Source: Armatimonadota bacterium
GTDB lineage: Bacteria > Vulcanimicrobiota > Xenobia > RGZZ01
Assembly: GCA_016868975.1 (NCBI GenBank)
Contig: VGFD01000004.1
Location: forward strand, 1-35,424
Length of the DNA stretch: 35,424 nucleotides
Reading direction: 5' to 3'
The notes under the pieces were generated by a model, which saw nothing but the letters and a program-made list of their open reading frames with translations, was not told the DNA's origin and searched no databases. The translations under genes were made by a program, and so were the position numbers. Every line of letters begins with the position of its first letter. Position 1 is the stretch's first letter. Of the stretch, positions 945 through 21,651 are shown piece by piece.

Positions 945-2189
945 TTAATCCGCGGCAGCCGGGTTGGAGCCAGGGGGAGTGTCCTTCGCCCCGGGGACTT
1001 TCTTTCGCCAGAGCGCTCGCGCGAAGCTCTCTCCCACCAGACCGGTGCTGGGAAGGCCGAAGCCTTCCAGGCAGGTGGCGCCCAGATCGCCAAAGCTGGT
1101 GCGAACGCCGAGATCCTGGCCGGGCGCCAGCCCCGGCCCCCAGGCGAGCATCGGAGAATACTCGCGCGTGTGATCGGTGTGCGACAGGATGGTGGGGTCG
1201 CAGCCGTGGTCGGCGGTGATGAACAGGACGTCGCCGTCGTGCATGCCGCCCATCAGCCGGCCCAGGTCGGCGTCCAGCTCGCGCAGCGCTTGCGCGTAGC
1301 CGGCCGCGTCGTTGCGGTGGCCGTACAGCATGTCGAAGTCTACGAGATTGGTGAAGATCACGCCGCGCCCGCGCTTCTCGTCGACCAGCCGCCGGGTGAT
1401 CTGCATGCCTTCCCGGTTGTCCTTCATCGGATGGTACTCGTGGATCCCTCGGCCGTTGTAGATGTCCTTGATTTTGCCCACCGCGTAGACCGGAAGGCCA
1501 CTCGCGGCGAAACGATCCACCGCCGTCTCGCCGGGCGGATCGATCGCGTAGTCCTTGCGGCGCGGCGTCCGCTTGAAGGCCCCCGTCGGCCCTTCGAAGG
1601 GACGCGCGATGATGCGGCCGATGAGGTGGTCGCCCTGCATCTGCTCGCGGGCGATGCCCGAAATCCGATACAGGTCCTGGATGGGCCACACGTCCTCGTG
1701 GCAGGCGATCTGGAACACGCTGTCGGCGGAGGTGTAGACGATGGGATAGCCGGTCTTGACGTGCTCCTCGCCCAATTCTTTGATGATGTCAGTGCCGCTG
1801 GCCGCCTTGTTGCCCAGGATCTTCGTTCCGATGGCGTCCTCGAAACGCTCCACGACTTCCGGCGGGAATCCCTGGGGATAGGTGCGGAACGGTACTTCGG
1901 TGGCCAGTCCGGCCATTTCCCAGTGCCCGGTGATGGTGTCCTTCCCCTTGGACGCTTCCACCATGCGCCCGTAGTAGCCGTCCGGCGTCTGCAACGGCGG
2001 TACGCCTTCCACCCTGTGGAGATTGCCCAGCCCCAGGCGCTGCAGGTTGGGCAGGGCCAGTCCGCCGGCCGCCGCGGCCACGTGGCCGATGGTGTCCGCG
2101 CCCTCGTCCCCATACTCTCCAGCGTCGGGCAACGCGCCGATGCCGCCGCTGTCAATGACCAGGATGATCGCACGGTTGAGATGACCCAT
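945..2189 (-). CDS. deoB: Phosphopentomutase
   Basis: MGHLNRAIILVIDSGGIGALPDAGEYGDEGADTIGHVA...; FITADHGCDPT metal-binding motif of the alkaline phosphatase/phosphopentomutase superfamily. Confidence 0.93.
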   Translation of the reverse strand: MGHLNRAIILVIDSGGIGALPDAGEYGDEGADTIGHVAAAAGGLALPNLQRLGLGNLHRVEGVPPLQTPDGYYGRMVEASKGKDTITGHWEMAGLATEVPFRTYPQGFPPEVVERFEDAIGTKILGNKAASGTDIIKELGEEHVKTGYPIVYTSADSVFQIACHEDVWPIQDLYRISGIAREQMQGDHLIGRIIARPFEGPTGAFKRTPRRKDYAIDPPGETAVDRFAASGLPVYAVGKIKDIYNGRGIHEYHPMKDNREGMQITRRLVDEKRGRGVIFTNLVDFDMLYGHRNDAAGYAQALRELDADLGRLMGGMHDGDVLFITADHGCDPTILSHTDHTREYSPMLAWGPGLAPGQDLGVRTSFGDLGATCLEGFGLPSTGLVGESFARALWRKKVPGAKDTPPGSNPAAAD

Positions 2190-2201: not shown

Positions 2202-2747
2202 CTATCTGCGTTTCCCCCTGGGGGAAGGGGCGCTTTCGTTCGTCGTGGCGACTTCCGCGGTCCTGCCTTCGTCGGGCCGCGCAACCGCGGGCACGGTGCG
2301 GCCGGCCAGCGTTTTCAGCTCGTCGGCGAAGCGGCTCACGTCCTTGAACTCCTTGTAGACTGAGGCAAAGCGCACGTAAGCGACCGGATCGAGCCCCTTG
2401 AGGTACTGCATGACCAGCTCGCCGATCTGGCGCGAGGAAACCTCCCCCTCGCCGCGATGCCGCAGGTCGCGCTCGATGCTGTTGACGATCGCCTCCTGTT
2501 GCGACACGGTGACCGGCCGCTTGCGGCATGCGTTGGCGATCCCCCGCAGCACTTTGCTTCGGTCGAACTCCTCGCGCTCGGTGTTCTTCTTGACGACCTT
2601 GAGCGAGGTTTCTTCATAGCGCTCGTAGGTGGTGAAGCGGCGCAGGCAGCCCTGGCACTCGCGGCGGCGCCGAATCGAAGTGTTGTCGTCGGTCTCGCGC
2701 GAGTCCAGCACGCGCGTGTCCATGTGTTCGCAGAAGGGGCATTTCAT
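2202..2747 (-). CDS. nrdR: Transcriptional repressor NrdR
   Basis: [43 protein letters not shown] zinc ribbon plus ATP-cone region; start moved to MKCPFC (ATG at 2747). Confidence 0.95.
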
Positions 2748-2827
2748 AAGGATTCTCTCATAAAAGCAGAAGCGCGCCGCTTCTCCACGAAGCAACGCGC
2801 TTCCCCCCGATAGCTGACGGGTATCCG

Positions 2828-3915
<1,088 letters not shown>

Positions 3916-3941
3916 GAAAGACCCCTTTCCCACGAATCCGC

Positions 3942-3962
3942 TGTGGATAACACTGTGGATAA
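3942..3962 (-). promoter_or_regulatory. Tandem pair of perfect DnaA boxes (TTATCCACA-gtg-TTATCCACA) upstream of ftsZ
   Basis: Plus strand tgtggataa cac tgtggataa at 3942-3950 and 3954-3962; two exact matches to TTATCCACA, 12 bp start to start. Confidence 0.75.
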
Positions 3963-4020
3963 ATCATCCCGATAATACGCATTCGGCGGCGTGCACTGTT
4001 TTGGTGCCGCCGCCGCCGCG

Positions 4021-5301
4021 CTAGAAAACATATTCTTTCAGCCAGGTAATGAAGCCCTGGAGGGCCTTGTTGACCGAGGAACTTCGCGCCACCGGAGTCT
4101 TTCCCTTCAGCACGCCAAGCCCGTAAATCAACAGTCCGACGCTGGCAGAATAGGCCGGATTGCGCAGGTGCGAGGGCAGCCCGCGCACGCTCTCCGGACG
4201 GGCAATGCGCACCGGATATCCGAGCGCCTGCTCGGCCGCCCAGGCCACGCCTTTCATCTCGGCGACGCCGCCGGTGAGCACGATGCTGGCCGGGCGGGTG
4301 CCCATTTTTCCGAGCCGGTCAAAGGACACGCGCAGCCACTCGAAGACGTCCATCAAGCGCAGGTCGATAATTTCCGACAACTCGGACACCTTCACCGGCT
4401 GCGGCTGCACCGAGGAGAGCGAGGTCACCTCGATCTCGCGCTCCATGTCGGCGGCTTCCACCTCTTCGCCCGCCGCCCGCCGCGCCGCCATTTCCTGCTT
4501 GAACGAAAGCCCTTCCTGAATGACCAGACGCTCGGCCTCCTGCAGTGGGACTCGCAATGCGGTGGCCACGTCATACGTCACCAGGGTGCCGCCCACGCAG
4601 AGCACGTCGGTGTGCCGCAGGTGGCCTTCCTTGAACACCGCCAGATCGGTGGTGCCCCCGCCGATGTCCACGAGCGCCACGCCGAGATCTTTTTCCTCGT
4701 CTTGCAAGACGCCGAGACTGGTGGCCACGCCGCTCACCACCAGCCCGGAATTCTCCTCCGGCTCCAACTCGGCCATCTCCATGCAATTCTGCAGGTTCTG
4801 CAACGGGCTTACCGAGCCGGTGATGATGTGCGCGTCCACCATGAGCTGCATTGCGGACAGGCCCACCGGATTCTTGATGCCGCTCACCTCATTGACCGTG
4901 AATCCCTTGGGGATGACGTGCAGCATGCGCCGCCCGTCAGGCACGCCCACCATGCGCGCATTCTCGATCACGCGCTGCACGTCGTGCTCGTTGATGACCC
5001 GGTTGTTGGCTCCGATGGCCACCGAGCCGCGGCTGGAATCCCCGCCCAGAAAGTCCCCAGACAGATTCACGAAGCAGCGGCTCACGCTCACCCCGGCCTG
5101 CCCTTCCGCCTCGCCCACCGCCGAGCGGATGGCCTGGGTGACTTCGTCCACATCGACCACGACGCCGCGCCGCATCCCGCCATTGGGGGAGACGCCCATG
5201 CCGATGATCTCCAGATCGCCCCGCGCGCTGGCGTCCGCGATGATGCAGCAGATCTTGGTGGCGCCGACGTCCACGGCGGTGACTCGCTGTTTTCTGGCCA
5301 T
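4021..5301 (-). CDS. ftsA: Cell division protein FtsA
   Basis: TAVDVGATKICCIIAD, VDIGGGTTDLAVF, SIVLTGGVAEMKG actin-fold motifs; C-terminal amphipathic helix LQGFITWLKEYVF. Confidence 0.95.
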   Translation of the reverse strand: MARKQRVTAVDVGATKICCIIADASARGDLEIIGMGVSPNGGMRRGVVVDVDEVTQAIRSAVGEAEGQAGVSVSRCFVNLSGDFLGGDSSRGSVAIGANNRVINEHDVQRVIENARMVGVPDGRRMLHVIPKGFTVNEVSGIKNPVGLSAMQLMVDAHIITGSVSPLQNLQNCMEMAELEPEENSGLVVSGVATSLGVLQDEEKDLGVALVDIGGGTTDLAVFKEGHLRHTDVLCVGGTLVTYDVATALRVPLQEAERLVIQEGLSFKQEMAARRAAGEEVEAADMEREIEVTSLSSVQPQPVKVSELSEIIDLRLMDVFEWLRVSFDRLGKMGTRPASIVLTGGVAEMKGVAWAAEQALGYPVRIARPESVRGLPSHLRNPAYSASVGLLIYGLGVLKGKTPVARSSSVNKALQGFITWLKEYVF

Positions 5302-21519: not shown

Positions 21520-21566
21520 AAACAACATCTTGTGTCAGGAGCATTCCCATCCACTAGATATTGTGT
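21520..21566 (-). promoter_or_regulatory. Pair of NrdR boxes upstream of nrdJ
   Basis: Minus strand ACACAATATCTAGTGG (21551-21566) and ACACAAGATGTTGTTT (21520-21535), 31 bp start to start; match consensus ACACWATATATWGTGT. Confidence 0.75.
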
Positions 21567-21569
21567 AAA

Positions 21570-21590
21570 TGTGGACAACTCTGTGGGTAA
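21570..21590 (-). promoter_or_regulatory. Tandem DnaA-box-like pair upstream of nrdJ (TTACCCACA-gag-TTGTCCACA)
   Basis: Each half has one mismatch to TTATCCACA; 12 bp start to start; 18/21 identical to the ftsZ-upstream pair. Confidence 0.55.
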
Positions 21591-21604: not shown

Positions 21605-21632
21605 AAAAAAGCCCCGCTTGCGCGAGGCTTTT
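21605..21632 (-). terminator. Intrinsic (possibly bidirectional) terminator after the 21652-22029 gene
   Basis: aaaaaaGCCCCGC-ttgc-GCGAGGCtttt; one-mismatch stem with A/T tracts on both sides. Confidence 0.7.
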
Positions 21633-21651
21633 GCCCTGAAATCCACCTGGG

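Follow-up and report, generated by a model that had tools for sequence, protein, structure and literature searches.

DnaA-box pairs upstream of nrdJ and ftsZ as candidate parts of a replication-linked regulon in an Armatimonadota bacterium

DnaA regulons and the present locus

The DnaA regulon of Caulobacter crescentus comprises ftsZ, gcrA, mipZ, podJ and nrdB (Hottes 2005; Fernandez-Fernandez 2011, PMC3193534). DnaA directly activates ftsZ, gcrA and mipZ there, and controls nrdB (PMC3193534; PMC8203912). The nrdAB promoter of E. coli carries sites for DnaA, NrdR and Fis (PMC8203912, PMC12176259), and DnaA and NrdR act on it (PMC4009431); uvrB is another DnaA target in that species (PMC8203912). 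The DnaA boxes of E. coli ftsQA were irrelevant to ftsZ according to Smith 1996, as cited in PMC8203912. Since regulation by DnaA is known both for ftsZ and for a ribonucleotide reductase (RNR), the novelty of the locus described here is limited to its arrangement, and the statement in the earlier note on this DNA that boxes at ftsZ plus class II nrdJ are not described was too strong. In searches of freely accessible papers for DnaA with nrdJ or class II RNR, judged by titles and abstracts, we found no report of DnaA acting at nrdJ; the sole paper to mention DnaA boxes, NrdR and nrdJ jointly was a genome description.

We analysed a stretch of 35,424 nucleotides (the window) from a draft metagenome-assembled genome, G000 (6.1 Mb, 956 contigs). 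G001 and G002 denote genomes of the same family, and g4, g7, g8 and g9 genera of the same class; C-numbers denote contigs and L-numbers loci within genomes. As in Caulobacter, where DnaA serves as a cell-cycle transcription factor, DnaA boxes precede ftsZ and an RNR gene in the window. The Caulobacter enzyme, however, is class I (nrdB), and nrdR has not been described in its ftsZ unit, whereas here the RNR is class II (nrdJ), an NrdR-box pair adjoins the DnaA boxes, and nrdR follows ftsZ. The promoter resembles that of E. coli nrdAB in combining DnaA and NrdR boxes, but nrdAB encodes a class Ia RNR, and in our genomes the DnaA boxes precede NrdR box 1 or overlap it. A further likeness to E. 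coli is that both ftsZ and a uvr gene have DnaA boxes nearby; the ftsQA boxes are inside coding sequence, whereas ours occupy the gap between ftsA and ftsZ, and uvrA takes the place of uvrB.

On the sequence comparisons presented below, we judge it fairly probable that the two sites are genuine DnaA-box pairs within a genome-wide regulon, that nrdJ is under dual DnaA/NrdR control, and that the ftsZ pair sets the level of FtsZ and of nrdR expression.

Table 1. Positions of genes, boxes and RNA copies in the window and elsewhere (C, contig of G000; L, locus).
Feature	Location	Strand	Remark
deoB, phosphopentomutase, directly downstream of nrdR	945..2189	-	
nrdR, repressor of RNR genes, directly downstream of ftsZ	2202..2747	-	TIGR00244 203.7 bits, cut-off 124.65
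ftsZ	2829..3915	-	TIGR00065; long ORF called 2758-3933
DnaA box TTATCCACA upstream of ftsZ	3942..3950	-	exact; ends 26 nt before ATG (3915)
DnaA box TTATCCACA upstream of ftsZ	3954..3962	-	exact consensus
ftsA, upstream of ftsZ DnaA boxes	4021..5301	-	
nrdJ, class II (B12-dependent) RNR, 738 aa	19273..21489	-	
NrdR box 2 ACACAAGATGTTGTTT	21520..21535	-	2 mismatches; 31 bp from box 1
NrdR box 1 ACACAATATCTAGTGG	21551..21566	-	1 mismatch to ACACWATATVTDGTGT
DnaA box TTGTCCACA, second of nrdJ pair	21570..21578	-	3 nt before NrdR box 1
DnaA box TTACCCACA, first of nrdJ pair	21582..21590	-	1 mismatch
Hairpin and T-run, terminator-like, between nrdJ regulatory region and upstream gene	21605..21633	-	by eye; not returned by the scan
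Exact box, rpmH-rnpA region	C237		oriC-like
Exact box, between rpsR and rplI-dnaB	C82		ssb just upstream
Exact box, upstream of parE-type topoisomerase B	C17		
Exact box, uvrA	C8		tandem, 13 bp; uvrB just upstream
Exact box, DUF503-lapA-recJ gene string	C170		
Exact box, just upstream of dnaA paralogue (dnaA2)	C136		
Exact box, ftsZ	C4		
Exact box, second ftsZ (ftsZ2)	C13		
Exact box, ThiS/dCTP-deaminase segment	C88		
Exact box, PLD/TPR gene interval	C8		
Exact box, two HNH genes	C79, C640		
Exact box, response regulator	C47		
Exact box, gene interval beside clostripain-type peptidase	C5		
Exact box, five ncRNA copies	C51, C57, C84, C317, C89		
ncRNA copy, G000	L250 5424-5880	+	
ncRNA copy, G000	L249 2265-1660	-	
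ncRNA copy, G000	L247 2232-1760	-	
ncRNA copy, G000	L005 1440-2000	+	
ncRNA copy, G000	L119 892-1300	+	
ncRNA copy, G002	L260 1501-1900	+	

The box pairs and the nrdJ promoter

The 21-mer TTACCCACAgagTTGTCCACA was located at 21570-21590 (-), 80 nt upstream of nrdJ, and reads TTACCCACAGAGTTGTCCACA on the gene strand. The 21-mer upstream of ftsZ, at 3942-3962 (-), reads TTATCCACAGTGTTATCCACA. The two are identical at 18/21 positions, equal in orientation and share a 12-bp box-to-box step, as the earlier note had described. Its gene identities were also sound: nrdJ scored 966 bits with NF006417 (cut-off 961) and 667 bits with TIGR02504 (cut-off 400), and ftsZ matched TIGR00065. Each nrdJ box carries one mismatch to the DnaA consensus, TTACCCACA being the weaker. 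A chance origin of the pairs was ruled out by dinucleotide shuffling of the window (no such pair in 100 shuffles), by the reversed-pattern control of TTNYCCACANNNTTNYCCACA (no match in the 6.1-Mb genome), and by a zero-order expectation for the relaxed pair pattern of 0.003 per genome versus 2 observed.

Directly after the nrdJ boxes, on the same strand, stands a canonical NrdR-box pair that the earlier note had overlooked. It is the sole NrdR-box match in the window at up to 3 mismatches, and it has the layout of an NrdR-regulated RNR promoter, namely two boxes ~31-32 bp apart before an RNR gene. The position of the DnaA pair immediately upstream of this two-box operator suggests dual control of nrdJ. 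DnaA would most likely bind the pairs at both nrdJ and ftsZ; at nrdJ it would report replication status, probably activating from upstream, while NrdR, bound nearer the promoter, would repress at high dATP and thus act as a dATP brake. No sigma-70 consensus promoter was returned by the scan at nrdJ, and neither a cobalamin riboswitch nor any other Rfam RNA reached the gathering score in the window or in the ncRNA loci treated below.

The same combination was found in relatives. At nrdJ, the NrdR pair has neighbouring DnaA boxes in 5/5 g4 and 3/3 g9 genomes, at spacings that differ from the 12-bp step. The g9 genomes share an unchanged block amid diverged flanks, CTGTGGATAACCACAACATCTCG, in which NrdR box 1 comes after a DnaA box. 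Most g4 genomes have the second DnaA box and NrdR box 1 in overlap (TTATCCACAAyCTGTAGTGG); NrdR box 2 is followed there by TTGAC, which resembles a -35 element. The g8 nrdJ has the NrdR pair and no DnaA box, and neither was clearly seen in g7. NrdR pairs were common among 80 named nrdJ relatives, mostly of other phyla; exact TTATCCACA occurred within 600 bp of nrdJ in none of them, and any TTNTCCACA in 3. Counted by genus, boxes at nrdJ were present in 3/5 of the class versus 3/80 relatives (Fisher p=0.002, genera and loci being partly non-independent samples). In four outgroup genomes of the phylum, no TTNTCCACA sites were seen at RNR genes.

Moreover, G000 (C282) and G002 (C55) each encode a second class II RNR whose -35/-10 region is overlapped by an NrdR pair, with DnaA-like boxes upstream, and the C282 promoter repeats the core of the window element, CCACAGAGTTGTCCAC. 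If this reading is correct, a class II RNR would be under joint DnaA and NrdR control. By eye, we also observed a leader with a cobalamin-riboswitch-like CCGGAGCTGCCCCCGCAACTG before a 966-aa class I-type RNR in G003 (C12, L302); the class II nrdJ of that genome, in contrast, has DnaA and NrdR boxes.

The ftsZ-nrdR-deoB string

The gene directly behind ftsZ, at 2202-2747 (-), is nrdR, which the earlier note had overlooked; it holds this place in G000, G001 and G002. In consequence, the ftsZ DnaA boxes precede the RNR repressor gene too. Judging from gene order, the nrdJ and ftsZ loci are linked through the predicted regulator NrdR, beyond a common motif. DnaA would affect ftsZ and, by position, nrdR, provided that the two are co-transcribed, which would close a feed-forward loop: DnaA acting on nrdJ and on nrdR, and NrdR acting on nrdJ. 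An RNR repressor behind ftsZ would, if so, suggest a tie of division, dNTP supply and replication initiation. DnaA boxes at an nrdR lying away from ftsZ were found in one genome of several (G003) and thus make no general rule.

We must also note that the conserved C-terminal peptide of FtsZ (..EVPAWIRR..) lies in the region 2758-2900 (-) in a frame other than that of the long ORF, a frame that ends near 2828. This change of frame at the 3' end would be a frameshift, either assembly-made or real; the ftsZ of G002 is intact.

The promoter scan at ftsZ gave no sigma-70 consensus on the coding strand and one weak match on the opposite strand. With none at nrdJ either, we can only guess at both genes whether regulation is positive or negative. 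The best -10-like hexamer seen by eye is TATTAT at 3977-3972 (-), with no -35 beside it; a start directed by it would fall near 3965 and place the boxes at ~+3 to +23, which would suggest a position suited to repression. Neither G001 nor G002 has the pair between ftsA and ftsZ. Given that absence, the lack of promoter support and the ftsQA precedent, our confidence is lower at ftsZ than at nrdJ.

The same points feed the best-surviving alternative, in which the nrdJ boxes function with NrdR while the pair at ftsZ binds or titrates DnaA and leaves transcription of ftsZ and nrdR unaffected. It would explain why the pair is missing from both same-family genomes, it fits the cited ftsQA case (PMC8203912), and it accommodates a pair so close to the ATG (26 nt) that little room is left for a promoter. 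Nevertheless, regulation is favoured by the place of two exact boxes in a short gap between genes, given that 90% of such boxes in G000 are intergenic and that they gather at genes of replication and division, and also by the box upstream of ftsZ2. We therefore rate titration as possible but the less probable choice, and prefer DnaA control of ftsZ and nrdR. The second ftsZ itself (C13, L118 402-1763), also present in several class relatives, is ~65% identical, has clpS before it, and carries one TTATCCACA upstream in G000.

Genome-wide boxes, DnaA proteins and a multi-copy RNA

Every TTNTCCACA in G000 was listed and checked for a codon-biased ORF, whether a site was coding or intergenic being decided by ORF length and GC at codon positions rather than by annotation. 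Exact TTATCCACA was intergenic at 28/31 sites (90%), TTGTCCACA at 12/20, and the TTYTCCACA controls at 4/30, the judged control set being the 30 sites with fetched loci (Fisher p=2e-7 for intergenic location of exact TTATCCACA versus the rest). Some of the G000 contigs in Table 1 could be foreign, as the assembly has 8.4% contamination. G002 holds 7 exact TTATCCACA in 5.7 Mb versus 6 for the reversed control and thus no excess. These fall at four kinds of place, dnaA/rpmH (with TTATCCACA between the two genes), rplI-dnaB, the PLD/TPR interval and the ncRNA, and 4/4 are boxed in G000 too; we regard these common places as the strongest single evidence that the boxes are functional.

A replication-linked DnaA-box regulon in G000, as proposed in the earlier note, is accordingly graded by us as very likely, with boxes strongly intergenic and placed at replication, repair and division genes. 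Its proposed basis, one composite operator, was not supported, the 21-mer being found only at nrdJ and ftsZ. Sites before division, dNTP-supply, replication and repair genes suggest that the machinery starting replication probably has a second role in adjusting division and nucleotide supply; the principle is known, the arrangement new. The multi-copy ncRNA and the HNH genes, by contrast, partly answer to the matches unrelated to replication or division that the earlier note had named as counting against its regulon. Inverted DnaA-like box pairs 29 bp apart were observed on C79 (L248 1561-1598), C640 (L117 1503-1540) and C170 (L103 1503-1540), those of C79 and C640 upstream of HNH-domain genes. 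All three are partly hairpin-like palindromes and may perhaps be no DnaA sites.

Three DnaA_C proteins are encoded in each of G000 (C558, C136, C13) and G002 (C11, C44, C233). DnaA-1 retains the DNA-contact signature PRQIAM...KDHTTV, so G000 has a DnaA with an intact box-recognition motif, and its rpmH-rnpA region (C237) uses TTATCCACA. Paralogues 2 and 3 have KDYSSV and ANPNQV at the canonical DHTTV. Paralogue 3 and the second ftsZ share one contig in both genomes. The number of paralogues and the TTATCCACA just upstream of dnaA2 raise the alternative that a diverged DnaA paralogue, not the initiator, reads the boxes as a specialised transcription factor. We consider this improbable: it is the initiator-like DnaA-1 that kept DHTTV, and in most other class genomes, which have a single dnaA, the box clusters around that gene have the same sequence.

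Still less credible is a composite operator of 21 bp, dedicated to a two-gene regulon and different in kind from ordinary DnaA boxes. The identity, orientation and spacing shared by the two 21-mers would suit it, as would the common core CCACAGAGTTGTCCAC in the second RNR promoter and the count of TTNYCCACANNNTTNYCCACA in the whole of G000, exactly 2 matches, at nrdJ and ftsZ. The genome search that the earlier note had proposed for the 21-mer thus returned no further replication or division genes. An element occurring just twice is not a widespread composite operator; the DnaA box by itself is the unit. Other DnaA sites of G000 have 10-, 11-, 13-, 29- or 51-bp steps or are single, the spacings at nrdJ vary among relatives, and the 21-mer is absent from G001 and G002, with only weak one-mismatch matches elsewhere in the class. 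Chance similarity, with DnaA regulating neither gene, is the least plausible reading of all, since the shuffles, genome search, expectation, intergenic bias and conservation at nrdJ in other genera outweigh the individual commonness of one-mismatch boxes and the E. coli ftsZ precedent.

A structured ncRNA of ~330 nt, new and without an Rfam match at gathering score (one unrelated match fell below threshold), has five copies in G000 and one in G002; neither BLAST nor the covariance model found it outside these two genomes. As a tentative extension of the preferred reading, DnaA may run a broad regulon in this family (dnaB, parE, uvrA, recJ, ftsZ, ftsZ2, a dnaA paralogue and both class II RNRs) with a feed-forward loop via ftsZ-nrdR, in which the five ncRNA copies would be the strongest targets. 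On that extended view, an ncRNA with conserved DnaA boxes in its promoters would be a replication-coupled regulator. The preferred reading, if true, would by itself extend the principle of DnaA as a transcription factor, known from few model bacteria, to an uncultured lineage, and would point to a new DnaA-box-driven RNA family. The ncRNA promoters carry the boxes at fixed positions (..TTATCCACA..TCCACA..AATTCACA..TTGAC N~17 TAtNaT), and compensatory changes occur at 15 pairs of the consensus fold. A covariance model built from five copies recovered the remaining one on C89 at 73 bits; this copy, too, has an upstream TTATCCACA, at a distance of ~250 bp.
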